Of a stretch of DNA of 21,957 bases, positions 3,673-17,542 are shown piece after piece (positions within the stretch are counted from its first letter, which is position 1; each line of letters begins with the position of its first letter). The stretch covers positions 1 through 21,957 of IMG/VR virus record IMGVR_UViG_3300031518_000015; one strand, 5' to 3'. The notes beneath the pieces are model-generated. The model saw nothing but the letters and a program-made list of their open reading frames with translations. It ran no database searches and was not told where the DNA came from. The position numbers and the translations under genes are program-made. The DNA comes from a virus.

Positions 3673-5832
3673 TCAGTAAGCTATATCAATGCGTTCAACA
3701 ATCACATATGGTGCAGCATCAGAAGTTCTGGAACCAGAAAGCTTGATCTTGTAGCGCTGAATACCGGCTGAGATGTTAAAAGTAAAAGTTTTGCGTATGG
3801 CGTCTTCGTCTTCTTGCTCGGTTGTAACAACGGCTGGGTTGTAGGTGGTGTTGCTTACTGTATCGATAAGCTGGCAATTGATAGTGTGTTTAGTAGGATC
3901 GAACTTATGTAGAAGCACTTGCACATCTATGTTTTGTCTTGGGGCAGAGAGAACTCTCTCTGTGGAGGTTGCAAAAAAGGTTGTTGCGGGTCTGCTTGCG
4001 GTGATAGCCTGTTCAGTGAGGATTAGGGCTGGTTGCAAATCTGCAGTGCCAAGCATGACCGCCCTCAATGGCACGATGTCGGGAGCTGAGGAAAGTCTGC
4101 CCGTCTCCTTCAGTGGGTACCACTTCCCACCTACATTGATCTCAAAGATCAATTCCGTTCCTTCGGGCACGACGGCGGGGGCTATGATTTGGAGGTCAGT
4201 GATACCTCCGGCAAGGCTTACGGGTTGAAGCTGAACTTCAGTCCTTGCTTGCTTAAATTGTGCTGCGTAGAGTTTAAACATAATATCTTTAGTTAAGTCT
4301 CCTGTGAAGTAATCTCCATCTGTGCCATAAAAGAGTGTTCCTTGCAAGTAGTTTTGTCCTGATACGGTTGCTACTTTGTAATCTCCTTGTGTGATAAAAC
4401 AAATGGCATATCTTCCGGGCTTTAGGAAGACCGGTGGTAGATTGATGATGGTTTCAGAGGGGTATTTTTGCACATCTGATGGGTTTAAAGTCACATGGGT
4501 TAAGGTTTTTTGGAGGACTGGTTTTCCGCCTTCGGTCTCGCAAATCACAATGTGTATATCTGCGTTGCTGTCTTTTTGAGTGAAGTATAGACCAAGTCCA
4601 GCGAGCCACATCGGAGAGGAAATCACAAAGGTTTGGGCAACGATTGCCCCGTTTATAGTGTGGGTTGTTTCTTGAAGTCTATATTCTGTAATTGGATAAG
4701 ATACCCAATACCCGCATCTTCCATACCACCAATAGTCGTAATACCAATACCAATACCAGTAGCGATAATACCAGTTCCAGTAGCAGCCCCACCCCCAGCC
4801 ATAAGTCCAGTAGTATTGATAATAAGTGTATTTTTGCAGTGTGAGGGTCTGCCATTGGTATCTTGATATTGAGATGTCTCCGGAGTAGCCTTTTGTCTCA
4901 AGCTTTGGGACGAGGTCATACTTTGGAAGAACTAAGTTATCAAATCTTTGTATGTTTGGGTCGTATGGGTTAAATAGTGCGAGATTAGCCCTTGCTTCTC
5001 CTGCATTTGGGAATAACAAGCCGTTGAAAATCTTCGCCTGCGTGTTGTTTGTATCTATTTTTGATGTATCTCCAAAGTAATCTGCATCATAGCTGTGGTA
5101 GGTGCTTGGGAGGTTGAGTTTTTCTTTTACACGAGCCATGTCTGCCATGACCTCAAGGACTGCTTTCAGGTCGGCTTTTCCGTCTGTCTTTTTGGCAAGG
5201 GTTGAAAGGTCGGTAACGATTGAGATGAGGCGGGGCTCGGTTAAAGCCCTCCAATTTTTCAGCTCTTTCACGTCTGCTTTGGTCTCATATAAACGAGGTA
5301 GGACATAATCTTCAACTCGAGTTATCTTTTCAATGCCGGTTGTGGAAAGGTAGATGTAAGCGACAGGCACTACATTTTCCTGAAGGGCTGGGGGTTGAGG
5401 GTCAACGGATTCCACGCCGGGAACAAGGTTTACATTGGCTTTGTTAATATGGGTCATGGCGACAGCACGGGGCTCCGTTGTCCCCTGCACCACATCAATT
5501 AGGAAATCCCGTGGCTCTACCTCTGTCTCTGTCTCAGAACCCCATATAACCACTGCAACTACTTTTTTGGTGTTCAAGGGCAGATACTGAAAGATATTGA
5601 ACTCAAGTGATTGTTCGGAAATGTAGATTTTGCCGTTGGCATACAATCTCCCCGGGGCTACTGTTATCTCAGTGGAGGAGTTTTGCGTAACCTCAAAGCC
5701 AGTGTAGTGATAGCGGTTAGAGATTGCGTCGGTGATAACCGCTTCTATGGCTTGGGCAGTAAAGTCTTGGGTGTTGTTCAGGTCTTTTGCTTGGAGCTCT
5801 TGCCTGTCTCTGTAAATAACTTTTTTAAACAT
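3673..5832 (-). CDS. Large DUF4815-like tail/fibre protein with Tyr/Trp-rich insert
   Basis: The 719-residue product follows tail protein I, where collar or proximal fibre proteins are encoded. Residues 1-200 (MFKKVIYRDRQELQAKDLNN start, VAPGRLYANGKIY, later VVPVAYIYL) resemble the DUF4815 family of phage structural proteins. Residues 335-376 are a remarkable aromatic stretch, 17 Tyr and 11 Trp in 42 positions. Residues 385-520 look like a beta-sandwich (GLGLYFTQKD, FLKPGRYAICFI), and more beta-rich sequence follows to the C-terminus. ATG 5832 has AGGAGG 7 bases upstream and overlaps gene I by 8 bases. No cysteine-knot or enzymatic motif was noticed. Function as a tail fibre or baseplate-associated adhesin is inferred. 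Confidence 0.75.
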   Translation of the reverse strand: MFKKVIYRDRQELQAKDLNNTQDFTAQAIEAVITDAISNRYHYTGFEVTQNSSTEITVAPGRLYANGKIYISEQSLEFNIFQYLPLNTKKVVAVVIWGSETETEVEPRDFLIDVVQGTTEPRAVAMTHINKANVNLVPGVESVDPQPPALQENVVPVAYIYLSTTGIEKITRVEDYVLPRLYETKADVKELKNWRALTEPRLISIVTDLSTLAKKTDGKADLKAVLEVMADMARVKEKLNLPSTYHSYDADYFGDTSKIDTNNTQAKIFNGLLFPNAGEARANLALFNPYDPNIQRFDNLVLPKYDLVPKLETKGYSGDISISRYQWQTLTLQKYTYYQYYWTYGWGWGCYWNWYYRYWYWYWYYDYWWYGRCGYWVSYPITEYRLQETTHTINGAIVAQTFVISSPMWLAGLGLYFTQKDSNADIHIVICETEGGKPVLQKTLTHVTLNPSDVQKYPSETIINLPPVFLKPGRYAICFITQGDYKVATVSGQNYLQGTLFYGTDGDYFTGDLTKDIMFKLYAAQFKQARTEVQLQPVSLAGGITDLQIIAPAVVPEGTELIFEINVGGKWYPLKETGRLSSAPDIVPLRAVMLGTADLQPALILTEQAITASRPATTFFATSTERVLSAPRQNIDVQVLLHKFDPTKHTINCQLIDTVSNTTYNPAVVTTEQEDEDAIRKTFTFNISAGIQRYKIKLSGSRTSDAAPYVIVERIDIAY
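4705..4830. repeat. Low-complexity stretch encoding Tyr/Trp-rich segment
   Basis: On the plus strand the region is built from ACCA/CCAG words, with ATACCA three times in tandem at 4741-4758. On the coding strand this reads as TAT-TGG, giving alternating Tyr-Trp. Six-base units can slip in copy number without breaking the frame. Confidence 0.85.
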
Positions 5833-7033
5833 TTATAACCTCCTGAATTTTGATTGATTGCCCTGCTGTGATGGTGCCATCTGCCGTTGGCGTTCTTTTT
5901 GTTTTTGTATCAATAAAGATTTTGTCTCTTACGCTTTTGTAGTCGTTTATGAGTTTTTGTGTTTCGTGTAAAGCCCGTTTAGGCGTGGCACTAAGGAATT
6001 TAAAGAAAAACCTCTGGTGGGTTTTGTCTTTTATGTCTATAAGAAGCTCGGCGTTGTATGGCGGAATTCGAATAGGTTTTTCGTCTAAGAAGGTGTAGGC
6101 GTTGCGTCGCTGTGGGATTACTTCTGGGTCAAAGATGCGGAAGCGTTTCCAGATGCGTTTTTCTGCGTCAAGGTCTGTAGTGTGTCCGTGTGTGTATGAA
6201 ATAAAGGCAATTTTATAATTGGCGTTTCCTTTTTCTTGTAGGGTTTCATATTTGGATGTGATTGGTTCTGTGGAGGGTGTAATGGTTTCTGTGCGGGTGA
6301 TTGGTTCATAATCGGAGTAAAGGACAGGTAAGTTAAGGGTGTAAAGTCTTTCTTTTGCGTTGTGATTGACAAGATATTTTAAACGGTTTGATTTCGTAAA
6401 AGAACCGTAAGCATTCCCTTCTTTGCGGACTTCTACTTTTTCCTCTGCTGTCTTTTCCTTTTGTGTGTATTGTATAGTGTAGGTTTTGAGGGGTTGAAGG
6501 ATGCCATTTTTGACTAAGTATGCCCTATGCCCATAGCGATTTATTGCGAGCTGGTTGTAAGGGTGCAATTTTGCAGAGAGGAACTCTTTCTGGTAAGGTT
6601 GGTATTTTTTGCCGGGAAAGGAAAACTTTGTGAGGCGTAGTTCTGGAAAAAGCTCGTAAAATCTGGCTCGGTCTTCATCTGTAAGGGAAAGGCTAAAATA
6701 GGTTTTTATCTCGGGTGTCCTTGCTCGGATGAGCCTTGAGCCTGCAAGCTGGCATGCGGTCTTGATGCCCAACAGGGTGCCCTTGCCTCTATGAAGATTG
6801 ATTGCGTTCTTGATTAAATTGCGTTTTTCTTGGATTGTCTGTGCTTGTTCGTAGCCCTCAATGTGAAATTGCCAGCCTAAAAGGTCAAGGAGTTTCTCGT
6901 CCTCTAATTCGTCGATGCGAGGATAGATGAGAACATTGATAATGCGATTCTTCAGTTCTTCAAAGCTTGTGTCAAAGGTGTCTACTAAATGTTGAAGCTC
7001 TCTTATGCCTGGAGGAGTTAGCTCTTTAATCAT
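5825..7033 (-). CDS. I: Tail protein I with long C-terminal extension
   Basis: About the first 150 residues resemble P2 gpI/phage tail protein I: an acidic helical start (LTPPGIRELQHLVDTFD), LIYPRIDELEDEKLLDLLGWQFHIEG, and the RNLIKNAINLHRGKGTLLGIK segment typical of the family. In P2 this protein joins baseplate wedge and fibres. The product is about 402 residues, roughly twice the usual size; the extension is rich in Thr, Lys and Tyr and is likely a fibre-attachment region. I chose ATG 7033 because GGAGG lies 8 bases upstream; an in-frame ATG at 7048 has none. It overlaps J by 8 bases and the next gene by 8. Confidence 0.8.
   Translation of the reverse strand: MIKELTPPGIRELQHLVDTFDTSFEELKNRIINVLIYPRIDELEDEKLLDLLGWQFHIEGYEQAQTIQEKRNLIKNAINLHRGKGTLLGIKTACQLAGSRLIRARTPEIKTYFSLSLTDEDRARFYELFPELRLTKFSFPGKKYQPYQKEFLSAKLHPYNQLAINRYGHRAYLVKNGILQPLKTYTIQYTQKEKTAEEKVEVRKEGNAYGSFTKSNRLKYLVNHNAKERLYTLNLPVLYSDYEPITRTETITPSTEPITSKYETLQEKGNANYKIAFISYTHGHTTDLDAEKRIWKRFRIFDPEVIPQRRNAYTFLDEKPIRIPPYNAELLIDIKDKTHQRFFFKFLSATPKRALHETQKLINDYKSVRDKIFIDTKTKRTPTADGTITAGQSIKIQEVINV
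6564..6575. promoter_or_regulatory. Dispersed palindrome copy within tail gene I
   Basis: TGCAATTTTGCA, exact half sites. It is read through as Ala-Lys-Leu-His codons of tail protein I. Confidence 0.5.
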
Positions 7034-8126
7034 CCACCAAACCTCCATAGCGAATGCTTACGTTCCGTGCGTGTGCTATCTGTTCAATAGTGAGTTCCTG
7101 CCTCGTTGGTAAGGCTAAATCTACCCTGTAAGCTCCCGCTTGCTTGACAAGTCGTGTTAGTTCTTCGGGTAAGATGTCCCTTCCGATTTTGGATTTTGTC
7201 CAAGCTATAAAGTCGTTTACTGCTTTTTCTACTGCGGATTGGATGAAGGAAAGTTTGGAAGCATCCTTCTTATTTACATAAAAGGTTAAATCAATGTCGT
7301 ATTGAACTATCTCAGGTGCAGAAACTAAGACTTGGTCGGTGAGGGGACGCACACGCTCTGAGGATAAATAATCCCTAACAAGAGAGAGCATACTTGCATC
7401 TGGGATGTTGCCGCCTTTCACGGTAAGGATGACTTTTACCTGACCGGCGGCTGGACTATAGACTTCTGCATCTTCTATGTCTTGATGGGCTGATAGCGTG
7501 TAATAGATGTAAGCTTGTTTGGAGCCCGCATTGGTGAAGCGTTCAATGGATAGTCTTATTCTCTCCCGGAAGCGTTCATCATCTTCTTCATCTGCACCAT
7601 ACATGCTCATTGTGATGTTTGAGACAGAGTCAATGTAAGGCAATGGGTCTATAAGGTTTTTTACCTGTCCGGGAGAAAAGCCGTTTCCTTTTGTTCCTGC
7701 TTCATTACACTCAGCTGGGACATCAACATATAAGCTTCCGGCTGGGATCTTTACCTCCTGCAAAGTTGCAAAATAGAGGTCTCCTCCTGCGGATGCCCTT
7801 GTCCCGGCAGGGATGACTACATCAAAGCTTAGGGGTTCGGATAAGGAAAAACGCAAGATTGTTTGTGCCTTCCGGGCGGGGAGTCTTTGAACTCCGTAAA
7901 ACTCAGCAAGGGCGTCAAGGTGTGGTCCGGTTGCATATGCAAGCAAATTCTGTTTTGCGGTCTCGTTTATGGCTATGGCTAAAAGAGTGCTGGCGTAGGT
8001 TTGAAGGTTCAGTAGTAATCTTTCAGGGTCTGCTGGGTAGAGTGGGCGCTGTGTGATGTTTTCATAAGCGTCAATCAACAAGCCTTCCCAATAAGTTGCG
8101 TCTGTTTCCACAAACTTTATATCCAT
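7026..8126 (-). CDS. J: Baseplate assembly protein J
   Basis: This 366-residue product matches the P2 gpJ/Mu gp47 baseplate wedge family in length and layout: N-terminal DATYWEGLLIDAYENITQRPLYPADPERL, the VVIPAGTRASAGGDLYF segment, AGTKGNGFSPGQV, and DDERFRERIRLSIERF followed by GSKQAYIYYTLSAHQDIEDAEV. These are the most conserved stretches of the family. It overlaps W by 10 bases and I by 8, the expected W-J-I order, pointing to coupled translation. The ribosome site is weak, consistent with coupling to W. Confidence 0.92.
   Translation of the reverse strand: MDIKFVETDATYWEGLLIDAYENITQRPLYPADPERLLLNLQTYASTLLAIAINETAKQNLLAYATGPHLDALAEFYGVQRLPARKAQTILRFSLSEPLSFDVVIPAGTRASAGGDLYFATLQEVKIPAGSLYVDVPAECNEAGTKGNGFSPGQVKNLIDPLPYIDSVSNITMSMYGADEEDDERFRERIRLSIERFTNAGSKQAYIYYTLSAHQDIEDAEVYSPAAGQVKVILTVKGGNIPDASMLSLVRDYLSSERVRPLTDQVLVSAPEIVQYDIDLTFYVNKKDASKLSFIQSAVEKAVNDFIAWTKSKIGRDILPEELTRLVKQAGAYRVDLALPTRQELTIEQIAHARNVSIRYGGLVDD
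7759..7770. promoter_or_regulatory. Dispersed palindrome copy within gene J
   Basis: TGCAAAGTTGCA, exact half sites with a different centre. It encodes Ala-Thr-Leu-Gln in J. Confidence 0.5.
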
Positions 8127-8422
8127 AGCTCTTGCTTCACTAATACATCTTCAATTGCTAATACAAGCTGTATCTTTGTCCTGTCAAGGCGTCTATCAAG
8201 TTTGATTTCTTTGACCTTTACCCTTGGTTCCCATCTTTCTATTTCATCTACAATGTAAGCTTTGATCTTGCCAGCGGTCAAAGCGGTAAGAGGCTGGTCT
8301 ATGAATCTGTAGAGTTCTGAACCAAAATCGGGGCGGTGCACATCGGAACCTTTGGGCGTGGTCAAAATCACACGGATATTTTGCAAGACACTTTTTACGG
8401 CGTCTCGTTCAATAACAGTCAT
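8117..8422 (-). CDS. W: Baseplate wedge protein W (gp25-like)
   Basis: The 101-residue product belongs to the GPW/gp25 family of baseplate wedge proteins: the VLQNIRVILTTPKGSDVHRPDFGSELYRFIDQP segment is characteristic, followed by EIERWEPRVKV. It forms the inner wedge with J and I and initiates sheath assembly. I chose ATG 8422, where the family match begins; the frame is open to 8458. There is no Shine-Dalgarno sequence before it. Instead the 18-bp late element lies 33 bases upstream, suggesting that W begins a transcript that is leaderless or nearly so. Confidence 0.9.
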   Translation of the reverse strand: MTVIERDAVKSVLQNIRVILTTPKGSDVHRPDFGSELYRFIDQPLTALTAGKIKAYIVDEIERWEPRVKVKEIKLDRRLDRTKIQLVLAIEDVLVKQELWI

Positions 8423-8455
8423 AGTAAAAAGGATGGCGGATGGGAAGGGGGATTT

Positions 8456-8473
8456 CAAGCAAAGATTTCACAA
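8456..8473 (-). promoter_or_regulatory. Late element before W (copy 4)
   Basis: Plus-strand CAAGCAAAGATTTCACAA. It ends two bases from the stop codon of the F-like gene and lies 33 bases before the W start, which has no Shine-Dalgarno sequence. Proposed activator site or core of a late promoter for the W-to-lysis unit. Confidence 0.6.
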
Positions 8474-8475
8474 AC

Positions 8476-9816
8476 TTAGAAGAGCTTAACTGTGGCAGAC
8501 GGTAGGTTTTCAGAGAGTTCAGCAGGCAAGCTCTCTATATCTTTCTTCAGCCGTCCGCACGTTTTGATAGCAAGGCTTTCGTCGTTTGAAACCACATAAA
8601 CACCGTTTTTGACAAAGATGTAGTTCGTTTCGTATTTTTGGGTCTGAGGGTTGAGGACTCTCTGGATAAAGACGTGCTCGGGCTTTTTTATCACTTCATA
8701 GCTTAGTTGTTCGTATTCTTTGAGAGAGTTGACTCCTAAGTCTTTTGCCTGCTTTTCAAACTCCGCTTTAAGTCTGCTGGCTTTAGCGTCAAAAGTGCCA
8801 TCTGGATTACGCCTCCAGCCGCTTCCAAGATGTGCTTTTATGCGGGCGGTTAATTCTTCAGGTCTTAAAGCTTTTAACTCAGTGGTCAGTTCCTGCAAAA
8901 TTGCAGTTTCCTCCAGAGATCTGGGTGGGACAGCTGGCTCTACGACGACCGGGTAGGGTTCTTCAATTTCTTCAATAAAAGAGACGATCCTGCACCGGCA
9001 GTGCGGGTGGGCTGGTGGCATCTTTGAAGGCATCTGCGAGCTTGGTAGGCTTTTTAGCTTTTCTAACGGGAGGCTTGTTAAAAAAGGCTTTACTTCAGGT
9101 AAAGATGCTGGGTCAGATTCTATAAGTTCCAAAGTCCGGACCGCATCCGCCGTTTCAAAAATTCTTCCGTCCATAGCACGGCAGTAAGGGCAGGTTAGCC
9201 TGTCCCCCACAGCATCCCATCTGTATTTTGTGATCCTTGCCTTTGCTATAGCCCTCAGCCTTGCGGAGTTGCGAAGGTGATTAACTGAGGTGTCTATGAT
9301 CTGTCTTACTTTACCTTCCGTTCTTTGCTTGAGATACCCTCCAAACTCGTTTAGAAAATGCTTTATGCCCTCTTGCTCCTTGCCAATAGGGTTTCCTTCT
9401 TCTAAATAGTATTTGGAAAGCCACTTCACCACGTCCAGACGAAGCTTTTTATCCCCCTGAAAGAACTTACCGAGATAGAAGTCGCTTAAGGAAAGGGCAT
9501 AGTTGATAGAGCGCTCGTCTGCCATATTGAACTCTGTCCGTATCGGCATCCCAGCGGTGGCTTCCTTTTGTGTTTTTTCGTAGATCCTTTTGAACTCAGA
9601 GTAAAGCATTTCCTTGTGTTCTGGTGATAGGCGCACTTTCTGTTCTAATTCTTGCATGATAAACCGTGTAAAATCGTTAAAGCTCATGAAGTAAGGTGCA
9701 AAGCGGAAGGCTTGGGCGAGGACGGACTCTACTTTCTGCAAAAAGTCAGGAAGGATCTTCTTCAGTAGTTCGTTTATAAACTCGTTCCCTTCCGCATCCC
9801 AGTCGTATTCCGCCAT
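8476..9816 (-). CDS. F: F-like minor head protein with C-terminal nuclease-like domain
   Basis: The 446-residue product matches Mu gp30/SPP1 gp7-type head morphogenesis proteins, which sit at the portal and may enter the host with DNA. Residues about 150-280 carry the family signature: YRWDAVGDRLTCPYC (Cys209, Cys212) and PPAHPHCRC (His270, His272, Cys273, Cys275), a likely zinc site. The C-terminal part (about 320-446; KAHLGSGWRRNPDGTF, then VIKKPEHVFIQRVLNPQTQ and FVKNGVYVVSNDE) resembles the barnase/EndoU/colicin/RelE-like nuclease domains known to be fused to such head proteins, but I cannot confirm catalytic residues. Start ATG 9816 has GAGGAG upstream. It follows the portal gene and ends the head module as seen here. 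Confidence 0.82.
   Translation of the reverse strand: MAEYDWDAEGNEFINELLKKILPDFLQKVESVLAQAFRFAPYFMSFNDFTRFIMQELEQKVRLSPEHKEMLYSEFKRIYEKTQKEATAGMPIRTEFNMADERSINYALSLSDFYLGKFFQGDKKLRLDVVKWLSKYYLEEGNPIGKEQEGIKHFLNEFGGYLKQRTEGKVRQIIDTSVNHLRNSARLRAIAKARITKYRWDAVGDRLTCPYCRAMDGRIFETADAVRTLELIESDPASLPEVKPFLTSLPLEKLKSLPSSQMPSKMPPAHPHCRCRIVSFIEEIEEPYPVVVEPAVPPRSLEETAILQELTTELKALRPEELTARIKAHLGSGWRRNPDGTFDAKASRLKAEFEKQAKDLGVNSLKEYEQLSYEVIKKPEHVFIQRVLNPQTQKYETNYIFVKNGVYVVSNDESLAIKTCGRLKKDIESLPAELSENLPSATVKLF
8894..8905. promoter_or_regulatory. Dispersed palindrome copy within F-like gene
   Basis: TGCAAAATTGCA with C and G flanks, the full 14-base consensus. It encodes Ala-Ile-Leu-Gln between the zinc region and the C-terminal domain. 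Confidence 0.55.
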
Positions 9817-9818
9817 GC

Positions 9819-11057
9819 TTACTCCTCGGGACCGTAACCGAGTTCCTTCTTGGCTGTTTCAATATCAATGATGCCGGCTTGAAGGAGTTGGACTATCCTT
9901 TGGGTTTCTTTAAGCCTTGCCTCAGCCTTCTTCTGCGGTTCAAAATCGGGAAGCGGGTTGAAGATGATATTCACATCGTCTATGTCAAAGCCTTTAAGCA
10001 TGAGATGTAGGCGGTAGACAAACTCTAAGAAACGTCTGACAAGTCTTTGTATGTTTTCAAGTTGTGCGGAAAAAACATGCAGAGCTACCGTTGCCCAAGT
10101 TTCAGTGTAGCCATCTGAAAAGCCAAGAACTGCGGGTTGAGATTTTGCTCCTTCTATTAACCATTTCTCCGCAAGGTCTATGATTTCCCTTATGCCTCCC
10201 GCATTAGGTGATATTTCCTTGAATTCTGCCTCTGTCCCATCAAAGTGAAGGAATATGCCTTTGCTCATATTCTCACTTACCTGCTGTGCGATGTTCTCAA
10301 GCCACTTTAAAGCCCTCTCTTGGTATTCCGTTTCTGTCTCGTTGGGTGCTTTTGTAAGCGGTGGAAATTTAACATCTAAAAATCCGATTAGACCGATTTT
10401 CTGTGCTAACCCTTTCAGCTCCGTGATCATGTTTTCCACCACTTCTACGATGGAGAGGGAGGCAAGAAATGGAGGGATGGCATAGGGCGAATCTTCAAGG
10501 GTCAGCAGAGGCAAATACTTGTAAGTCATTGGATTGAGTTTTATAGGTTCTGCGTTGCCGACCCATTGGTAGGCTTCGTATTCGTCCGTCTCTTCGTTGT
10601 AGGTGAAATACACAGTAGCTGACGGGACAAACACGACCTTTTTTACACCCTGCAATTTTTCATCAACCACCACTTCAGCTGATATAGCTCCAGAGATGTT
10701 TATCTGTGCGATCAACTGATTGACTAAATGGTCTGTGTTGAGAAGGAAAGCAAGCTCTTCGAGTTCCTCCCTTGCTTTCTCTGCGTCTTTCCCTTCAATT
10801 TGAACAGTGTGCCCTGTGTTTGCTAAGGTGATTGTTAGGTTATGCACTTGCGAAAGGATAGGATTTACAACAACCGCTTTGGCTATGACGTTTAGCCATT
10901 CCCTCGGATACTTAGGATTGACGAACTTATACCGGACGTCTAAGGTCTTGGGAGTTAAAATCTTCTCGGCTTGGAGTGAGACTCTCGTTTTTGGGAGGTC
11001 TGCTAAGTTTATCTTCTCGGAGCCAAACAGGCGTTTAAAATAGCGCACTAAGTCCAT
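9819..11057 (-). CDS. Portal protein
   Basis: The 412-residue product lies directly between the large terminase and the F-like gene, as the Mu gp29 portal does. The portal ring is the channel for DNA packaging and the tail joint. Family-like features are the N-terminal strand/helix region, KYLPLLTLEDSPYAIPPF before the stem, the long central helices, and an acidic C-terminus (ETQRIVQLLQAGIIDIETAKKELG) of the type common in portal proteins. It is somewhat shorter than Mu gp29, and I am not certain whether it belongs to DUF935 or to another portal clade. It overlaps the terminase gene by 23 bases; GGGAG precedes ATG 11057. Confidence 0.82.
   Translation of the reverse strand: MDLVRYFKRLFGSEKINLADLPKTRVSLQAEKILTPKTLDVRYKFVNPKYPREWLNVIAKAVVVNPILSQVHNLTITLANTGHTVQIEGKDAEKAREELEELAFLLNTDHLVNQLIAQINISGAISAEVVVDEKLQGVKKVVFVPSATVYFTYNEETDEYEAYQWVGNAEPIKLNPMTYKYLPLLTLEDSPYAIPPFLASLSIVEVVENMITELKGLAQKIGLIGFLDVKFPPLTKAPNETETEYQERALKWLENIAQQVSENMSKGIFLHFDGTEAEFKEISPNAGGIREIIDLAEKWLIEGAKSQPAVLGFSDGYTETWATVALHVFSAQLENIQRLVRRFLEFVYRLHLMLKGFDIDDVNIIFNPLPDFEPQKKAEARLKETQRIVQLLQAGIIDIETAKKELGYGPEE
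10651..10662. promoter_or_regulatory. Degenerate dispersed palindrome in portal gene
   Basis: TGCAATTTTTCA, one half-site mismatch; the same variant occurs at 1316-1327 in the o-spanin gene. It is weaker evidence than the exact copies. Confidence 0.3.
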
Positions 11058-12345
11058 AGCTCAACTCCCTTCTTTGTTTGGTAAAAAGCACAGGTAAAAA
11101 CTCCTTTGTTTCCTCTTGGCTTGAAGCATGCAAAGCTAATGCCAAACTCCAAAACCTGTCTGCGTGGCTGTCTTGAGTTTCTCCCTCGTAGCGTATATTC
11201 CCGGCTGGAGTTAAAGTCTTCTTCACAGAGTGCAAATCTTCAATCAAGTCTCTGTCGGGCGGTATGCTGATAATTTTGTCTTCAAAGACTGCTTTTACTC
11301 TACTTGCAAGCTCTTCTTTTGCTTTGGCTGTGAAATACACCCGCAGGACTTTAAGCTCTCCCCATTTCTTAGCCAGCTCCTCCGCCAACTGCATGCCTAT
11401 TCCTGTTTCGTCTATTGCAACTTTGCGGGCGTATGCGGTTAAGTGGTCAATGATCTTGAACTGCTCAGAGAAAGGAAGCTTCCTTAGGATTTCTTGTTTG
11501 CGTAGATAATACCTACCTGCCACCTTTTCCAATATGCTTATCACCGTCAAGTCATGCCTTCTTCCAATGTCAATGCCAAGATAGACATCTCCAGTCAGTT
11601 CTCTTATGTCTGCTTCTATGCCCTCCACAGTGCAGGCATGGATTAATTCATAGGGAAGCAGGACAGATTCTTCGTCCATGAATTCACACATATACTCTTG
11701 AAGCCAGATGTCTTGGTTTGGCACGCCCTTTCTTAACTCCTCCACATCCACATCAAGCCCGAGTTCCACTGCGTCAAAGATTGTTAGCTTTTGCCGAAAC
11801 CAAAGTTCGTTTCCTTCTGACATTTGCCAGAGATGTCCGAATATGTCGTTTTTCGCCTTAGGAGTTGAAATCACAACAAGCTTAAAGTCCCTGTTCCTTG
11901 TGATGCTTGGGAATATAGCTTGATAGACTTTGTAGCCGTCCTTGAAAAATGCCGCTTCTTCTAAAATCACATCACCAGTCAAACCACGCACGCCGTCTGG
12001 GTTTGCGGGAAGTCCGATAATCCGGGAACGGTTTGGAAACCTAACCTCAAGAACATTTGCCTGCGTATCCTCAAAAAACTCCACATCACCAGTTAGCTTG
12101 CCAATTTGTCTTAGAAACTCCACATGCCTTTTGACCTTTTCCATGAGTTCTTTTGACTGTCTTTCGGTGGGTGAGATGATGGCTACCAGGTGGTTTTTTC
12201 TCTCAATAGCCCGCAAGACTGCAAAAAGGGAGACCACGAAGGATTTTCCTGTTTGCCTTGACCACATTAGAATGGAATACTTTTTCTCAAGCATCTTTTG
12301 GAGGGCGTGGCGTTGGTAAGGGAGGAGGAGTTTTTCAAACTCCAT
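11035..12345 (-). CDS. terL: Terminase large subunit (ATPase/nuclease)
   Basis: The 436-residue product is the packaging motor, of the Mu gp28 type. The ATPase domain has a Walker A-like SRQTGKS (29-35), Walker B VILEE (126-130) and the coupling motif STP (160-162). The RNase H-like nuclease domain has acidic residues Asp259 (GIDIGRRHDLT), Asp312 (AIDETGIG) and Asp396 (HADRFWSLALA), all intact. Length is typical for a compact TerL. It is preceded by the DUF3486-like gene (11-base overlap) and followed by the portal gene, the expected packaging order. ATG 12345 has GGAGGA nearby. Confidence 0.95.
   Translation of the reverse strand: MEFEKLLLPYQRHALQKMLEKKYSILMWSRQTGKSFVVSLFAVLRAIERKNHLVAIISPTERQSKELMEKVKRHVEFLRQIGKLTGDVEFFEDTQANVLEVRFPNRSRIIGLPANPDGVRGLTGDVILEEAAFFKDGYKVYQAIFPSITRNRDFKLVVISTPKAKNDIFGHLWQMSEGNELWFRQKLTIFDAVELGLDVDVEELRKGVPNQDIWLQEYMCEFMDEESVLLPYELIHACTVEGIEADIRELTGDVYLGIDIGRRHDLTVISILEKVAGRYYLRKQEILRKLPFSEQFKIIDHLTAYARKVAIDETGIGMQLAEELAKKWGELKVLRVYFTAKAKEELASRVKAVFEDKIISIPPDRDLIEDLHSVKKTLTPAGNIRYEGETQDSHADRFWSLALALHASSQEETKEFLPVLFTKQRRELSYGLSALF
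11416..11427. promoter_or_regulatory. Dispersed palindrome copy within terL
   Basis: TGCAACTTTGCG, one end mismatch. It encodes the Lys-Val-Ala residues just before catalytic Asp312, so coding constraint may partly explain it. Confidence 0.35.
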
Positions 12346-12832
12346 AAATTTCCTCCTTCACAAGCCTTAGGAACTCTGGGTCTATGTTCCTCTTCTTGCC
12401 TTCCTCTTCTATCTTTTCCACTGCTTTCTGCAATTTTGCAGAGATGTATTCTTCCAAGCTCTTTGTCATCTGCGTTAGTTCTTTGACTGCTTTGATTAGT
12501 TCTCCGGGCTCTTCAAACTCCATGAAGTCTATGTCCTTTACAAACTCCAGCACATGCTGTGTAAGGATGGAAACAAGGGCGGAAAGCATAAAGCTTGTTG
12601 GCTTGTTTTGTGTTTGTTCAACAAGGATTTTTATCTTGTCCCACCATTCGTTGTATTGTTTAGCGAGTTCTTTATAGTCCCGGTAGGCACGATGGATGCT
12701 TGAGCGTGAGATGTCGTAGCCTTCAGATCTGAGCAGGCTTGCTATTGCCCGGAAGTCTTTCTTCTCTTCCTCGTAGAGATATACGATCCGCTGTATGAGG
12801 TCGTAAAGTTCTGCCTTTTTACGTTTTGCCAT
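12335..12832 (-). CDS. DUF3486-like protein, probable small terminase
   Basis: The 165-residue product matches the Mu gp26/27-type DUF3486 family in length, position and pattern: basic start MAKRKKAELYDL, a helix-turn-helix segment (FRAIASLLRSEGYDISRSSIHRAYRDY, about residues 27-53), then long helices. It should recognise phage DNA and hand it to TerL. It overlaps terL by 11 bases. GAGG upstream of ATG 12832 lies within the end of the previous gene. One exact copy of the dispersed palindrome lies inside it (12429-12440). Confidence 0.8.
   Translation of the reverse strand: MAKRKKAELYDLIQRIVYLYEEEKKDFRAIASLLRSEGYDISRSSIHRAYRDYKELAKQYNEWWDKIKILVEQTQNKPTSFMLSALVSILTQHVLEFVKDIDFMEFEEPGELIKAVKELTQMTKSLEEYISAKLQKAVEKIEEEGKKRNIDPEFLRLVKEEIYGV
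12429..12440. promoter_or_regulatory. Dispersed palindrome copy within DUF3486-like gene
   Basis: TGCAATTTTGCA with full 14-base flanks, encoding Ala-Lys-Leu-Gln. The same four residues are encoded by the copy in tail gene X, an unrelated protein. Confidence 0.55.
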
Positions 12833-12835
12833 TGT

Positions 12836-13120
12836 TCAGCCCTCGGGAGGAAGGACGGTATCATCTACGATCTCGCCATCAAGCAAATCAATTCCTTTTG
12901 GAGTGATCTTGTAAAGCGTTCTGTAGCGTCTTTTGTCGTATGGAATAGCTACCTTCTTAGCCTCCACGTATCCTTTATCCACAAGGTATGCGAGTGCTTG
13001 TCTTATCTCCGTGTCCCTGTGGTATTGGTAGAAAACCGCAATGATCTCAAGTTCTTCAATCTCCCGAGGGTAAATTCTTTTCAGGAAATCTAAAATCAAG
13101 CCTCTCAAACTCTTAGTCAT
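12836..13120 (-). CDS. Small winged-helix protein of the Mu packaging module
   Basis: The 94-residue product has an N-terminal helix (SLRGLILDFLKRIYPREIEEL), a recognition-type region (RDTEIRQALAYLVDKGYV) and a beta-wing (YRTLYKITPKGIDLLDG), the layout of a winged helix. In Mu-like phages a protein of about 100 residues with the same plan (VpaChn25_0724-type) lies at exactly this place, between the gp25-like protein and DUF3486. Its role there is unknown; DNA binding during packaging or regulation is likely. I chose ATG 13120 because GGGAGG lies 7-8 bases upstream and it overlaps the previous stop as ATGA; a TTG start at 13135 is less likely. Confidence 0.72.
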   Translation of the reverse strand: MTKSLRGLILDFLKRIYPREIEELEIIAVFYQYHRDTEIRQALAYLVDKGYVEAKKVAIPYDKRRYRTLYKITPKGIDLLDGEIVDDTVLPPEG

Positions 13121-13491
13121 TTTTGAACCTCCCAAAGTTTGTCCAAGACCTTCGAAAGCTTGCCCTCAAGCTTCTGTATCTCTGCCCTCCATCCACTCAC
13201 ATCCTGATAGTATTCCTCTTTTGATACACCGCATTTCTGCAGTTCTTCAAGCTTAGAGACAAGCCTGTTCAACTCATGCCTCCAACCGCTGACATCCCGG
13301 TAATACTCCTCCTTGCTTACCATCTCTTTGTGATAGTCCTCAAGTTTTTCTTCAAGCCTCTTCATCTCACTTGACAAACTCTCCATCCTCTTCTCAAACT
13401 TGAGAAGCAAATACAACAAAAAAGCAATGCTTGCAACCCAGCCGCCTTGAAAAATCAGCGAAAGAATTCCTACTTCCATTTGTTTAAACAT
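13117..13491 (-). CDS. Membrane-anchored coiled-coil protein (gp25/DUF2730-like)
   Basis: The 124-residue product has a membrane segment at about residues 9-27 followed by a long coiled coil. Inside the coil a block of about 37 residues occurs twice, marked by SKEEYY-(R/Q)DVSGWR. Mu gp25-type (DUF2730) proteins have the same plan and head the packaging module, so I place it there; a holin or spanin-like role cannot be excluded. ATG 13491 gives the longest frame, but ATG 13479 (MEVGIL) would put the late element 34 bases upstream, as at the three other copies. Neither start has a Shine-Dalgarno sequence, consistent with a leaderless or short-leader transcript. Confidence 0.7.
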   Translation of the reverse strand: MFKQMEVGILSLIFQGGWVASIAFLLYLLLKFEKRMESLSSEMKRLEEKLEDYHKEMVSKEEYYRDVSGWRHELNRLVSKLEELQKCGVSKEEYYQDVSGWRAEIQKLEGKLSKVLDKLWEVQK

Positions 13492-13513
13492 TGCAATAAG
13501 CGTGAGAGTATTT

Positions 13514-13531
13514 CAAGCAAAGATTTCAAAA
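13514..13531 (-). promoter_or_regulatory. Late element before packaging module (copy 3)
   Basis: Plus-strand CAAGCAAAGATTTCAAAA, four bases from the V stop codon. It lies 22 bases before ATG 13491 or 34 before ATG 13479. With TTT at both sides it is identical over 18 bases to the copy at 16109. Confidence 0.65.
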
Positions 13532-13535
13532 AGGG

Positions 13536-13970
13536 TCAGTGGCTGTGGTGAGGAGTGTTCCCGCCCTCGTCTATAATGGAACCCGTGGCGTGAATGTTGC
13601 CGATAACATTTACATTGCCCTCAATAATAACCGTTTGTGCCTTCACCCGGAGGATATGTGTTTTCCTGTCGTATTCAATCTCTGTTCCGTCTTCAAACCG
13701 CACAAAAAACTTATCTTTGTTGGCGACCGGCGGAGCGTCCTTGTTGTTGTAGATAGCCCCTAACACATAACCGTCCGAGTGTTCTCCTTCCTCATCAAAG
13801 GCAACAATCACGTATTCTCCTATGTCGGGCAGCCAATAGGCTTTGTCCTTCTGGGTTTTGGGTTGCACAACTGGAAGCCAATTGGAGACCAAGCCATCAA
13901 GGTCTGGCATTTGCACTCTCACCCTTGCTGTTTTTTCATCAACTGCTACCACTATGCCACGACGGATCAT
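13536..13970 (-). CDS. V: Baseplate spike protein V with metal-binding tip
   Basis: The 144-residue product matches the P2 gpV/Mu gp45 spike family: an N-terminal OB-fold (MIRRGIVVAVDEKTARVRVQ, LPDIGEYVIVAFDEEGEHSDGYVLG) followed by a beta-helical region with repeated strands (ILRVKAQTVIIEGNVNVIGN) and the tip GGNTPHHSH. The His-x-His at the extreme end is the known iron-binding tip that pierces the outer membrane. It overlaps D as ATGA, with GGAGG 9 bases upstream of ATG 13970. Normally W follows directly; here the packaging module follows. Confidence 0.93.
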   Translation of the reverse strand: MIRRGIVVAVDEKTARVRVQMPDLDGLVSNWLPVVQPKTQKDKAYWLPDIGEYVIVAFDEEGEHSDGYVLGAIYNNKDAPPVANKDKFFVRFEDGTEIEYDRKTHILRVKAQTVIIEGNVNVIGNIHATGSIIDEGGNTPHHSH

Positions 13971-14980
13971 TTTCTCTTACCTCCTCCGGGCTTTTTCAAA
14001 AATTCTATTCGTGTAGTGTAGCCGTCCCTTTTGATCTCGTGTTCAACCTGAGAGACATAATAAACCCCATCAAACTTATCAAAGCCCTTAAGTTCGATGT
14101 TTCCGCTTGCGTAAATGGAGGGGATGCCAACGCAGGTAAGTCTTCCTTTGAGTTCTCTCATTTCGTTTAGTGTTTTTTGGGCGTTGCTTATTCTCTCAGC
14201 TTGTGCTTTGTTCTCTACCCTGACTCTTTGGACTTGCTTATCTTGGCTTGCTTTCACCTCGGTTTTCTTTTTGTCTGCTGTTGCTTCTTTCTTCTTTGGG
14301 TCAAGATAGACCACATCCACAGCCCCGGCGTTCAGACTTGAGACCTCTATCTCAAGGTCTATCACCCACTCGGGCGTTAGCACAAACATAACCTTGCGAT
14401 TGAGGATGCTTTCTATTCCTTGAATGGCTATTTTCCCGTCTGCAACTTTGCAGGTGTATCCGTAGCGTTTGCAGAGTTGGGACAGGAATTCCAGATCCCT
14501 CTGCTTGTATTGGTCTATCCGTTGAAATGTGATGTCTGAACCTTCAAAGTAAAGCTTGTATCCGTTTCTCTTGGCTATGTCCTCTGCAATCTTCTTTAGG
14601 CTTGTGTTTTCAAAGGCGGTGGTCTTAGGCGTTCGGAAGCTTGCTTTGACATCTTTAGCTAAAGCCTTAATGGTAAAGGTTGCACCGTCTTGGGAATATC
14701 TGAAAGTATAGCTGTCTATGAAAAATACTCCCGCATCCCGCACCGCTTCTTCGTAGCCAAAGCGAACCTTTAGGCTTGAGCCTCTTGCAGGAGGGTTCTT
14801 CCTGAAAAAGCCTGTGCTGTCTTCAACCTCTATTTCCACATCATCGCTTTCGTCTTTGTCTAAGCCGTCGTTGTCTATATAGCGAAAGCTTAGAAGGTAT
14901 GGCGTGATGTATGCTGAAACATCTTTATTGCTTATTTCAACGTAAAGAAAAGGTTTGTAAAGTTCTACTCGGTCTGCCAT
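13967..14980 (-). CDS. D: Tail hub protein D (gpD-like)
   Basis: The 337-residue product matches the P2 gpD/Mu gp44 hub family (T4 gp27-like), the ring that carries the spike. Typical features are FLYVEISNKDVSAYITPYLLSFRYIDNDG, DDVEIEVEDSTGFFRKN, VRFGYE near residues 20-75, and DLEFLSQLCKRYGYTCKVADGKI (the conserved core segment) near 160. A Lys-rich linker (about 225-260) precedes the C-terminal domain. It follows X with a 16-base overlap; the nearest purine-rich ribosome site lies rather far upstream of ATG 14980, so translation may be coupled. Confidence 0.9.
   Translation of the reverse strand: MADRVELYKPFLYVEISNKDVSAYITPYLLSFRYIDNDGLDKDESDDVEIEVEDSTGFFRKNPPARGSSLKVRFGYEEAVRDAGVFFIDSYTFRYSQDGATFTIKALAKDVKASFRTPKTTAFENTSLKKIAEDIAKRNGYKLYFEGSDITFQRIDQYKQRDLEFLSQLCKRYGYTCKVADGKIAIQGIESILNRKVMFVLTPEWVIDLEIEVSSLNAGAVDVVYLDPKKKEATADKKKTEVKASQDKQVQRVRVENKAQAERISNAQKTLNEMRELKGRLTCVGIPSIYASGNIELKGFDKFDGVYYVSQVEHEIKRDGYTTRIEFLKKPGGGKRK
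14441..14452. promoter_or_regulatory. Dispersed palindrome copy within gene D
   Basis: TGCAACTTTGCA, exact half sites, encoding Cys-Lys-Val-Ala in the hub protein. Confidence 0.5.
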
Positions 14981-15180
14981 GGCGCTTTGATAACCTCTGG
15001 CTCGTCTTCAACACTGATGATCGGAATCTGCAATTTTGCACCGGGTGGTGGGTAGGGTAAGCCAAGATGCTGAGGGTTAGCACGGAGGATGTGTTCATAA
15101 AGATAAGGGTCTCCGTAGAACTGCCAAGCGAGCGTATCCCAGCGGTCTCCTTGTTTGGCTATGTAAATAAGGTATTCCAT
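14965..15180 (-). CDS. X: Tail protein X (LysM-like)
   Basis: The 71-residue product is a close fit to P2 gpX/phage tail X: YIAKQGDRWDTLAWQFYGDP, then HILRANPQHLGLPYPPPGAKLQIP, a LysM-like fold of the family's usual length. In P2 it is needed for tail completion and helps join tail components. GAGG lies 6 bases before ATG 15180. It follows U by three bases and overlaps D. An exact dispersed palindrome (15029-15040) lies in the GAKLQIP codons. Confidence 0.92.
   Translation of the reverse strand: MEYLIYIAKQGDRWDTLAWQFYGDPYLYEHILRANPQHLGLPYPPPGAKLQIPIISVEDEPEVIKAPWQTE
15029..15040. promoter_or_regulatory. Dispersed palindrome copy within gene X
   Basis: TGCAATTTTGCA, exact half sites; it encodes Ala-Lys-Leu-Gln, as in the DUF3486-like gene. 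Confidence 0.5.
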
Positions 15181-15183
15181 GCT

Positions 15184-15663
15184 TTACCTCGTGATGATGG
15201 GTTTATATTGTGAGGACTGCACTTGCTGTTGGGAGTTCTTCTTAGCTGGTGCTTTTTTCTTTGTTGTTTTGGTTTCCCTTGTCTGGAGTTTCTTTTCACG
15301 GTATTCTGTAAGCTTTACGTTGCAATAGATTGCGACGGGTTTGCCCCACATATCTACCTGCTTGACTTCTGCTGTGATGCTTTCTATAACGAAATCTCCG
15401 TAAACCTGTTCGGCGATGATCAGTTTTTTGGGTAAGCCCTCTTTAGCAATGTCTTTCAGTTTCTGGTATTCCTCGAGTGGGTCGCAAAAATCTCTGTGGA
15501 AGCCCACATTGATTTCAAGGCTTAAGAGTTCATCCCCGAGGAACTGCAAGCTTGAAGGGGCAAAGATGGTTCTATGCTTGGCTACTGCGTAGTCGTTTGT
15601 TTCTCTATGCTCAAGGTATGAATAGACTTTGAAGACGATTTCTCCGAGGGAGGCATAGTTCAT
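15184..15663 (-). CDS. U: Tail protein U (gpU-like)
   Basis: The 159-residue product resembles P2 gpU, a tail-terminator protein: MNYASLGEIVFKVYSYLEHR start, AKHRTIFAPSSLQFLGDELLSLEINVGFHRDFCDP, and YGDFVIESITAEVKQVDMWGKPVAI, close to the family core. The C-terminal 25 residues are a Lys/Thr/Gln-rich tail not typical of P2 gpU. I chose ATG 15663 over the longer frame to 15711 because the family match begins there and because the late element then lies 32 bases upstream. There is no Shine-Dalgarno sequence. Confidence 0.85.
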   Translation of the reverse strand: MNYASLGEIVFKVYSYLEHRETNDYAVAKHRTIFAPSSLQFLGDELLSLEINVGFHRDFCDPLEEYQKLKDIAKEGLPKKLIIAEQVYGDFVIESITAEVKQVDMWGKPVAIYCNVKLTEYREKKLQTRETKTTKKKAPAKKNSQQQVQSSQYKPIITR

Positions 15664-15695
15664 ATATATCAATATTCGATATATAAGCACTGGTT

Positions 15696-15713
15696 CAAGC
15701 AAAGATTGCAAAC
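15696..15713 (-). promoter_or_regulatory. Late element before U (copy 2)
   Basis: Plus-strand CAAGCAAAGATTGCAAAC. It ends at the last base of the DUF2513-like stop codon and lies 32 bases before the U start. Two bases differ from the other copies. Confidence 0.6.
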
Positions 15714-16075
15714 TATTGGATCAGGCTAAGGATGATTTTTTTAGCAAGCTCTCTCGCAAGGTCAAAGGTTAAGCTCAACCCGAGCTCCCTTGCCTTCTCT
15801 TTAACCTTGTTCCAAACGGATGGGTTGCGAACGCTATTTAAAAACTCGTGCCCCTGCCAAGTCAAGCTGATGGCGTAGTAGATAGGAGGACTGCCCAGAG
15901 ATTTAATGCAGTCTGCCTCTATCAATCCTGCTTGGGAGAGGAGCTTTATGTGGTAGGAAACTTTCCCCCCGTCATGGAAAGGTTGGAATGTATGGGGCAT
16001 TAACCGCCCTTCTTGTTCCGGGAGCTCTTCAAGCTTAAGAAGGATCTCCCGCACAAGCTCCCAGTCAAGCTTCAT
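15713..16075 (-). CDS. DUF2513-like putative regulator
   Basis: The 120-residue product matches the DUF2513 pattern: start MKLDWELVREILLKLEELPE, then VSYHIKLLSQAGLIEADCI, ISLTWQGHEFLNSVRN and VWNKVKEKARELGLSLTFDLARELAKK. The family is common in phages and has a predicted winged helix, so DNA binding is likely. It is the first late gene and has a late element 33 bases upstream, as U has downstream of it. That makes it a candidate late activator acting on these elements, in the manner of Mu Mor/C; this is inference. No Shine-Dalgarno sequence precedes ATG 16075. Confidence 0.75.
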   Translation of the reverse strand: MKLDWELVREILLKLEELPEQEGRLMPHTFQPFHDGGKVSYHIKLLSQAGLIEADCIKSLGSPPIYYAISLTWQGHEFLNSVRNPSVWNKVKEKARELGLSLTFDLARELAKKIILSLIQ

Positions 16076-16108
16076 GCAATAAAACTATGCTACCCGTGAA
16101 AAAAAAGA

Positions 16109-16126
16109 CAAGCAAAGATTTCAAAA
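16109..16126 (-). promoter_or_regulatory. Late element before DUF2513-like gene (copy 1)
   Basis: Plus-strand CAAGCAAAGATTTCAAAA, directly abutting the membrane-protein stop and 33 bases before ATG 16075. The A/T-rich sequence just before ATG may act as a weak -10. No consensus -35 is present, suggesting activator dependence. Confidence 0.65.
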
Positions 16127-16804
16127 TTATTTTTTTTCAAATGTTATTACCCATAGCGGGAAATCTTTAGTGCCGGGTATTATTTTAATTTTACAAAAAG
16201 TGGTTTCTAATTTCTTTTCTTCTACCTCAAAACCTTTAAGGCGTGGTGCATTTTCAATCGTGTCTCCTAACGTGCGCCAGAATTTCTTTGAATCTTCCTC
16301 ATTATCATTTGGATTGCATAATATTGAAAAAGGTGCTAATATAAACGAGGTAATCCTTTTCACTTCTTCATCTGAAGGATTTGGGATAAACATCACGGAC
16401 ACCTTTTCCACTTCTGGGTTACCAATGATCTCTATTGAAGAAAATTTTGCATCATAAAGCTTTCTTGGTCTACCATCTAACAATGGGACATCTTGTATTG
16501 TATAGTAAACATTAAGGTCAGCAAGCATTTTTTGGAGTTTTTTCTCAAAATCTTCGAGTTTGCCAAAAGTTTTCGGTGTTTCTTTCTGGATATCTTCTTG
16601 AATATTTTTAGCTTCTTCTTTATAGGTTAAAACCCCACCTCCTATCCAGCAAAGTATTAATCCTATTATCCTAAGCTTCCATTTATTTTTTTGCACCCAT
16701 TGATAAGATTCAACTTGCCGTTCATCCTGCTTATCCCTAGGCTCTTTCATAAAAGTAATGACAAATAGCATAACTCCGATAAAACCAAGTAATACCCAAA
16801 ACAT
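16127..16804 (-). CDS. Membrane protein encoded with repressor, unknown
   Basis: The 225-residue product has two membrane segments (about residues 1-18 and 43-61) near the N-terminus and a soluble, charged remainder with alpha/beta character (LPLWVITFEKK-like C-terminus). It begins 11 bases after the repressor stop with AGGAGG upstream of ATG 16804, so both are on one transcript and the protein should be made in the lysogen. By position it may alter the host surface or exclude other phages (lysogenic conversion). The gene looks more A+T-rich than its neighbours, suggesting separate acquisition. No family is recognised. Confidence 0.7.
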   Translation of the reverse strand: MFWVLLGFIGVMLFVITFMKEPRDKQDERQVESYQWVQKNKWKLRIIGLILCWIGGGVLTYKEEAKNIQEDIQKETPKTFGKLEDFEKKLQKMLADLNVYYTIQDVPLLDGRPRKLYDAKFSSIEIIGNPEVEKVSVMFIPNPSDEEVKRITSFILAPFSILCNPNDNEEDSKKFWRTLGDTIENAPRLKGFEVEEKKLETTFCKIKIIPGTKDFPLWVITFEKK

Positions 16805-16814: not shown

Positions 16815-17495
16815 CTAAACTTCGATCTCTCTTACTATTTTAACCGCTACCCCCACAATCCGCAAGTCTTCAGTTTTAAACTGCTCTGGCGGGATGGGTG
16901 GGTATTTGGGATTATCCGAAACCAGCATCATAACAGCGTCTATTCTCACAAGCCTTCTAACTAATAGTTCTCCGTTCCTATCCCGCACTATTACTATCTT
17001 TCCGCTTGGAATATCAGATCCGTCGCCCATGTAAAGCTTAAACACTACCAGATCACCATTCCGTAAGGATGGCTCCATACTGTCGCCTTTCACTTGCACT
17101 GCAAGCTGTCCGCCTTTTAGGATTGTTTCCTTGCTTACAAGCCCCCAGCCAGCAACTTCCATGTAGCCAACCCACGAGCGCCGCACCAAGGGAATTTGAG
17201 TAAACGATTCAAGGGTTTCTTCTGTTTTCTCCTTCAATTCTTTCACTAATACCTTCCTCTCCCACATCTCCCCCTTGCCTTCCTTAAGCCATTCATAAGA
17301 GACGCCAAAAACTTGTGAAATGAGTTTTAAGGCTGTATCAGGAATTTGGACTGTGCTCGCTTCCCAGTATTGTATGGTTCTCAAAGATTTCCCTATTCTT
17401 TTCCCAAACTCCTCCTGTGATAACCCTAAGGTTTTTCTTAGATATTTAAGCCTTTCGTGGATATTGCCAGTCTCTCCACTTGTGCAATGTTGCAT
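16815..17495 (-). CDS. CI-like repressor with S24 domain, catalytic Lys replaced
   Basis: The 226-residue product has an XRE-type helix-turn-helix (about residues 13-72; LGLSQEEFGKRIGKSLRTIQYWE) and a C-terminal S24/LexA-like domain: Ala115-Gly116 as a possible cleavage site, Ser139 in GDSMEPSLRNGDLVVF. The catalytic Lys of the family, in the V-K-R-L type motif, is replaced by Arg180 (ELLVRRL), so self-cleavage may be lost. It maintains lysogeny by repressing the rightward early promoter. I chose ATG 17495: the frame is open to 17717, but the helix-turn-helix starts just after this Met, and GGTGGG lies upstream. A palindrome copy overlaps the start codon (17483-17494), suggesting autoregulation. 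Confidence 0.88.
   Translation of the reverse strand: MQHCTSGETGNIHERLKYLRKTLGLSQEEFGKRIGKSLRTIQYWEASTVQIPDTALKLISQVFGVSYEWLKEGKGEMWERKVLVKELKEKTEETLESFTQIPLVRRSWVGYMEVAGWGLVSKETILKGGQLAVQVKGDSMEPSLRNGDLVVFKLYMGDGSDIPSGKIVIVRDRNGELLVRRLVRIDAVMMLVSDNPKYPPIPPEQFKTEDLRIVGVAVKIVREIEV
17483..17494. promoter_or_regulatory. Operator-like palindrome at repressor start
   Basis: TGCAATGTTGCA, exact half sites, overlapping the repressor start codon. Its centre is 42 bp, four helical turns, from the copy in the early promoter. Binding by repressor or Cro/Ner here would block repressor transcription. Confidence 0.6.
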
Positions 17496-17514
17496 ACCTA
17501 TCCCACCATACCCC

Positions 17515-17542
17515 TTGACTTTTGTGCAAAATTGCGTATAAT
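17515..17542 (+). promoter_or_regulatory. Rightward early promoter
   Basis: -35 TTGACT (17515-17520) and -10 TATAAT (17537-17542) with a 16-base spacer, a near-consensus sigma-70 promoter. The palindrome TGCAAAATTGCG (17525-17536) fills the spacer. Transcription should start close to 17549-17550, so the mRNA begins at or next to the ATG of the Cro/Ner-like gene and is leaderless. Confidence 0.85.
17525..17536. promoter_or_regulatory. Operator-like palindrome in early promoter
   Basis: TGCAAAATTGCG between -35 and -10 of the rightward promoter and just downstream of the -10 of the leftward one. The location fits an operator blocking early transcription; which protein binds is not shown. Confidence 0.7.

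Follow-up and report, generated by a model that had tools for sequence, protein, structure and literature searches.

A conserved element ahead of late operons in an uncultivated Mu-like phage family: a probable late promoter with predicted leaderless starts

How are late operons switched on when they open with genes that lack a Shine-Dalgarno (SD) sequence and share one short upstream element? The IMG/VR virus record IMGVR_UViG_3300031518_000015 raises this question; the window analyzed here is the whole stretch from position 1 to 21,957 (21,957 nucleotides), in which the element occurs four times. Sequence comparison indicates that the element is very probably a promoter, with RNA synthesis beginning right at the first codon of late operons, because a -10 hexamer lies at a fixed position behind it, start codons follow at only two distances, and all copies within one phage vary in concert. 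The full reading, in which the element supplies the activator site and the -35 of a late promoter family, the first genes are leaderless, and an HTH_17 protein is the candidate activator, is one we consider probable. The phages concerned display Mu-like traits (a MuA-like DDE protein, a MuB-like AAA protein, MuF, portal, and TerL).

The four copies in the window

The initial annotation had described an 18-mer at four places, and we recovered exactly these, at 8456, 13514, 15696, and 16109, with 0, 0, 1, and 2 mismatches, respectively; 0.07 matches are expected by chance, and four were never reached in 100 dinucleotide shuffles of the window. Since the minus strand carries all four genes, the element read toward them is 5'-KTGMAATCTTTGCTTG-3', and the functional minus-strand reading of its 16-mer in the window is TTGAAATCTTTGCTTG. 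This 16-bp element is asymmetric and ends in TTG; a weak -10 (NANNNT) follows, and then 6–9 nt lead to the ATG. The start codons are found at +33 (gpW), +34 (the small gene at the Mu gp25 position), +32 (gpU), and +33 (DUF2513), as counted from the 3' end of the 16-mer, and the stop codons of the preceding genes end 4, 6, 1, and 2 bases ahead of the 16-mer, so that the distances and adjoining stops reported earlier were right. The chosen start codons are backed by N-termini conserved across lineages (MNYASxG.., MKLDWEL..). Duplexes with the anti-SD before the four starts have energies of +1.9, +1.0, +0.1, and -3.4 kcal/mol, corresponding to no SD, and 169 other genes of the same phages average -7.6 kcal/mol (85% at or below -4), which confirms that these four genes lack what most others possess. 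Every minus-strand gene of the window from 16075 down to 430 sits downstream of the four copies, which we call E1 to E4:

8456–8471, minus strand: element E1 (GTGAAATCTTTGCTTG), probable promoter of the W-J-I-fibre-lysis operon; -35 TTG at 8458–8456
8430–8435, minus strand: -10 hexamer CATCCT of E1, offset 20, 17-bp spacer
8117–8422, minus strand: gpW/gp25-type baseplate gene, ATG +33 after E1, no SD, predicted leaderless
430–8126, minus strand: late genes of the E1 operon after gpW (gpJ, gpI, fibres, lysis)
13514–13529, minus strand: element E2 (TTGAAATCTTTGCTTG), probable promoter of the operon small gene-winged helix-turn-helix (wHTH)-TerS-TerL-portal-MuF
13488–13493, minus strand: -10 hexamer CAATGT of E2, offset 20
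13117–13479, minus strand: small gene at the Mu gp25 position, ATG +34 after E2, no SD, predicted leaderless
8476–13135, minus strand: late genes of the E2 operon (wHTH, TerS, TerL, portal, MuF)
15696–15711, minus strand: element E3 (TTGCAATCTTTGCTTG), probable promoter of the gpU-X-D-V operon
15671–15676, minus strand: -10-like hexamer AATATT of E3, offset 19
15184–15663, minus strand: gpU-like tail gene, ATG +32 after E3, no SD, predicted leaderless
13536–15180, minus strand: gpX, gpD, and gpV of the E3 operon
16109–16124, minus strand: element E4 (TTGAAATCTTTGCTTG), probable promoter of the DUF2513 gene
16084–16089, minus strand: -10 hexamer CATAGT of E4, offset 19
15713–16075, minus strand: DUF2513 gene (Pfam E = 1.2e-27), an element-headed gene that some of the phages lack, ATG +33 after E4

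Two features of the fibre genes may be recorded here. A tandem repeat of 30 bp × 6.6 (2505–2702) lies within an F5/8-type-C tail fibre gene (repeat INSQTAMNAV), and a fibre-type protein (3673–5832, minus strand) has a striking Tyr/Trp-rich stretch near its middle (YYWTYGWGWGCYWNWYYRYWYWYWYY).

Promoter signature, start distances, and relatives

A terminase query yielded a set of relatives comprising 29 related viral contigs and two prophage contigs. The contigs are metagenome fragments and the relatives are not independent of each other; sites were weighted by cluster. Across 74 sites in 31 clusters, NANNNT stands at offset 20–25 after the element in 82% of cases, and in 99% within one base, vs. 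12.5% in shuffles that keep relatedness, where the observed level was reached in 0 of 2000. The terminal TTG of the element (TGG in lineage C) opens a -35 hexamer, and a 17-bp spacing separates this from the -10. When redundancy is removed and one mismatch allowed, 100 sites remain: each is followed at +24 to +69 by a start codon in the same orientation, and 90 show a -10 at offset 19–21, vs. 22% at random places. A pattern scan of IMG/VR, using the element plus the -10, found at least 104 distinct sites; among the matches listed, 63 fall in loci with genes of this phage family and nearly all have starts at +32 to +37 or +54 to +59, whereas 41 fall outside the family and almost none has a start at those distances.

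The start codons form two classes, +31 to +37 (59/74 sites) and +54 to +62 (15/74), with none between; counted by cluster, the ratio is 26 to 5. An SD is missing from the shorter class (mean duplex energy +0.8 kcal/mol, 0/59 at or below -4) and mostly present in the longer one (mean -5.6 kcal/mol, 10/15 at or below -4). In bacteria, Aquifex included, leaderless genes are, as is generally accepted, marked by a TANNNT about 12 bp ahead of the start (PMC3160421), and the geometry found here, with the -10 at offset 20–25 and the ATG at +31 to +37, is that of such genes. Because of this -10 position and the SD-less start at +31 to +37, most late mRNAs are predicted to be leaderless, with the 5' end on the ATG or a few bases from it at most. 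RNA polymerase would start there, so that the first gene of most late operons would be translated leaderless; in some lineages the same promoter would feed a leader of 22–30 nt, mostly with an SD. The initial annotation had proposed a late promoter giving leaderless or short-leader mRNAs, and this is strongly supported by the fixed -10, the two start distances, the missing SD, and conservation in relatives.

The element recurs before the same genes in these relatives, with dozens of related viral contigs carrying it ahead of the operons that it heads in the window, and it takes lineage-specific forms: TTGCAATCTTTGCTTG or GTGMAATCTTTGCTTG in lineage A, the group of the window, GTGAAATCTGTGCTTG in B, GTGAAATCATTGCTTG in B', and TTGAAACCTTTGCTGG in C. 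Out of 16 positions, mismatches average 0.84 between operons within one phage vs. 2.94 for the same operon between lineages. The B/B' split was drawn partly from the element itself and is not resolved by the TerL tree; the contrast between A and C is independent of it. A single trans-acting factor in each phage, reading every copy, would be expected to produce such concerted variation. The late hexamers are weak, with a mean of 3.7/6 for the -35 and 3.8/6 for the -10, the latter even with free choice among four offsets, and 13 conserved bp lie upstream of the -35 TTG. Together with the concerted variation, these properties indirectly support activator dependence of the late promoters.

In the longer contigs (G003, G004, G005, G006, and G009), elements stand at the head of the HTH_17 gene, which closes the early region, and of the capsid, terminase-portal-MuF, W-J-I-fibre-lysis, and U-X-D-V operons, as well as of DUF2513 where present. 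The terminase-portal-MuF operon opens with an Hjc-like nuclease in lineages B and C. In four contigs (L007, L004, L028, and L029), MuF and the element that follows it are separated by an extra open reading frame (ORF) of about 130 aa.

The candidate activator and alternative readings

The protein that we regard as the likely activator of the late promoters, from sequence and structure modeling, is an HTH_17 protein of about 80 aa (Pfam HTH_17, E = 2.3e-14), whose gene, at 1831–2070 in G004, for example, is the last of the early region and has elements on either side; the contig of the window ends before its own copy. A search with this protein gave 26 loci, and in the 24 of this phage family the gene adjoins elements, mostly one before and one after. 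The consensus -10 TATAAT occurs in four of six HTH_17-gene promoters tested, and the gene's own start lies at about +42 to +46 in the later loci of group A. The best Foldseek matches of an AlphaFold2 model (22 sequences, predicted local distance difference test score 75) are the BldC-DNA complexes 6AMA/6AMK and Pukovnik Xis 4J2N, and the sequence profile finds Pukovnik Xis at 3e-6. On DNA, BldC occupies direct repeats of 9 bp in a head-to-tail arrangement, with Arg30 reading TG steps at that same interval (PMC5859096); in the element, two TG steps are likewise spaced by 9 bp (KTGM-N5-KTGC). At the position matching Arg30 in the alignment, lineage B, with TGTGC as its second half-site, has N, and the other lineages have S or T. 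The HTH_17 protein of L013, itself of lineage B, shares only 47–54% identity with those of L014 and L018 from the same lineage vs. 71–73% with L015 and L023 (T residue, ATTGC form). That the recognition helix partly tracks the element variants is suggestive only.

We propose that a phage-encoded activator, most likely this HTH_17 protein (a winged helix of MerR/Xis/BldC type encoded by the last early gene), would bind the element through two TG-containing half-sites 9 bp apart, with their center near -41, and, as a class II activator, make contact with polymerase. The element before its own gene would provide positive autoregulation. We infer activation, not repression, because the late hexamers are weak and the gene stands at the end of the early region.

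Several observations weigh against this proposal, beginning with the non-independence of the relatives noted above. G003 is an exception, having a different, divergent HTH_17-like gene and a capsid operon with no element before it. The element of the HTH_17 promoter is degenerate in lineage C (G009, where it is accompanied by TATAAT) and in L018, and in lineage A the -10 of this promoter is less regular. The structural model has no Foldseek match below E = 0.001, and similarity to BldC in the sequence profile is weak (about 0.005). The correlation between residue and element comes from few proteins and has an exception, L057, which combines S with one TGTGC site.

The surroundings of the HTH_17 gene show further peculiarities. 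In G003 (6297–6376), a perfect palindrome TCGCAAAATGCGA stands in the element's place between the divergent HTH_17-like gene and the capsid operon. In L043 (12540–12585), the element before the HTH_17 gene is directly adjoined by a strong hairpin with a T-run that resembles a terminator, and the HTH_17 leader in L061 (3053–3110) and L063 (893–950) has, at the predicted transcript start, a two-codon ORF ATGGCATGA that overlaps the ATG of the gene. The prophages L030 and L031, from Sericytochromatia metagenome-assembled genomes, have no element match within 2 mismatches. They carry two tandem HTH_17 genes (L031 6090–6550, L030 172–632) in phage regions that are near-identical between the two contigs, the second gene being preceded by a degenerate ATTGCTTG-N20-CATAAT-N6-ATG.

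The element could conversely be an operator through which the S24 immunity repressor, or HTH_17 as a repressor, shuts the late promoters. The stoperators of mycobacteriophage L5 are repressor sites that shut promoters, and a site overlapping the -35 can serve repression. The BldC-like fold serves repression too (PMC5859096). HTH_17/Xis proteins can be repressors or activators, which also counts against the activator proposal. We nevertheless hold an operator to be unlikely, as weak -10 and -35 hexamers fit activation, and the S24 repressor has diverged to about 42–62% identity among phages that share the same element. Its likely operators are a different, imperfect repeat, TTGTGCAA..TTGC, found at 17480–17496 and 17522–17538 of the window between the S24 repressor and a Cro-like gene (probable immunity operators). 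S24 was thus set aside as the element-binding protein; the version with HTH_17 as the repressor retains some probability.

Likewise unlikely is a constitutive or alternative-sigma promoter, in which the 16-mer would be an extended -35 read by sigma without an activator. A clear -10 at 17-bp spacing speaks for it, but a sigma region-4 contact would not extend over the 13 conserved bp that precede TTG, the copies within a phage all change together, and no convincing match to a sigma-factor family was found among the proteins scanned. A sigma-54 reading of TTTGC was rejected, since by eye there is no GG at -24.

The order of the late operons in four contigs, which fall in the set L034–L042, bears on a role in recombination. 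Behind HTH_17, MuF, and gpV/PAAR, in this order, stand the terminase, capsid, and W operons in G005; terminase, W, and capsid in G006; capsid, W, and terminase in G009; and W, the contig end, and terminase in G004. Our reasoning from the maps is that these arrangements can be interconverted by inversions between two oppositely oriented elements. It is very unlikely, in our estimate, that the late promoters also serve as programmed genome hinges, HTH_17 acting at inverted copies both to activate leaderless late transcription and to aid recombination between them, with inversion pairing late operons anew with other upstream modules. We give slightly less credit still to the element being primarily a recombination site, either a boundary sequence or an invertase target that shuffles late operons. 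The breakpoints do lie at elements, where the capsid, W, and terminase operons follow different upstream genes and unrelated upstream flanks meet near-identical downstream flanks. This reading, however, leaves the -10, the start codon distance, and the missing SD unexplained; the site is asymmetric, and no near-identical phage pair differing by an inversion was found. A recent inversion polymorphism was rejected, as the inspected junctions with near-identical flanks differ by insertion or loss of a cassette and not by swapped operons, and these same junctions gave no evidence of programmed inversion. Shuffling is more likely a consequence of shared promoters, and we regard the permutation as modular evolution at them. 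The junction of element plus start is self-contained, packing stop, promoter, and start into about 50 bp (the TGA inside the element being the stop of the upstream gene in lineages B and C, offset -4), which would let whole late operons reshuffle with no loss of regulation.

That the same late promoters are activated by the DUF2513 protein, as the initial annotation had suggested, is the least probable reading, and a very remote one: the protein resembles a winged helix (a weak HTH_20 match) and its gene sits behind an element, but it is absent from L001, L004, L010/G003, G005 (35 kb), G006, and others that keep elements, although these contigs are partial and a copy elsewhere is possible, and in L001, whose TerL is identical to that of the window and which is 98.9% identical downstream of the gpU element with a different gene upstream, it is replaced at exactly that boundary. 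DUF2513 thus appears to be one of the genes behind the element and not a general activator, and HTH_17 is the better candidate. The cassette of gene 16127 and DUF2513 (window 16109–16804) is missing at the matching place in L001 (1195), the boundary being the gpU element, and gene 16127 was found in the window only (tblastn, E ≤ 1e-3). The gp26-like wHTH protein, conserved in all, is held to be a less likely activator, being encoded in a structural operon at the Mu gp26 position.

Comparison with known systems

The closest parallel in layout is offered by the C-dependent late promoters of Mu (Plys, PI, PP, and Pmom), where several late operons of a Mu-like phage likewise share an activator site at the -35 region. 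Mu late promoters have non-consensus -10 and -35 hexamers, and the activator C is made before the late phase (PMC4461284). Here too, a conserved site at -35/-41 is common to several late operons, with a weak -10 behind it. The present system differs in its asymmetric direct-repeat site, its HTH_17 candidate, and its first genes predicted to be leaderless. No match to the Mor/C family was found among the window proteins scanned or the early genes of G004 from the MuB-like gene to HTH_17, which is a part of the early genes. Because of this and of the asymmetric direct-repeat site, the element system appears, on present evidence, to lie outside the Mu C regulatory family.

HTH_17 proteins of BldC/Xis type (Streptomyces BldC 6AMA/6AMK, Pukovnik Xis 4J2N, and RdfS 8DGL) have the same small single winged-helix fold. 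The phage protein differs from them by its place at late promoters, its putative activator role, and its weak sequence identity, and it links BldC/Xis-type mini-regulators, as a candidate, to phage late control. No close precedent for leaderless phage late genes, or for a late activator resembling MerR, turned up in a literature search of incomplete coverage; a system that pairs a presumed BldC/Xis-like activator with leaderless first genes would be a new variation on phage late control.

The leaderless genes of Actinobacteria, Deinococcus-Thermus, and Aquifex share the -10-to-ATG geometry and the lack of an SD (PMC3160421). In the phages, unlike in these bacteria, only the first genes of late operons would be concerned, behind a shared activator-type element, and other phage genes have strong SDs. 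This suggests that phages may reserve leaderless translation for late operons while keeping SDs elsewhere.

Finally, the start-associated sequences (SAS) and extended start-associated sequences (ESAS) of cluster K mycobacteriophages are also repeated conserved elements before many genes with a phage-specific consensus (PMC3203893). ESAS are 17-bp inverted repeats with a variable spacer, whereas the element described here is an asymmetric promoter part with a fixed -10 and no SD. With one type of site, one candidate activator, and starts predicted to the base, it would provide a complete and testable late-gene switch for an uncultivated family of Mu-like phages.

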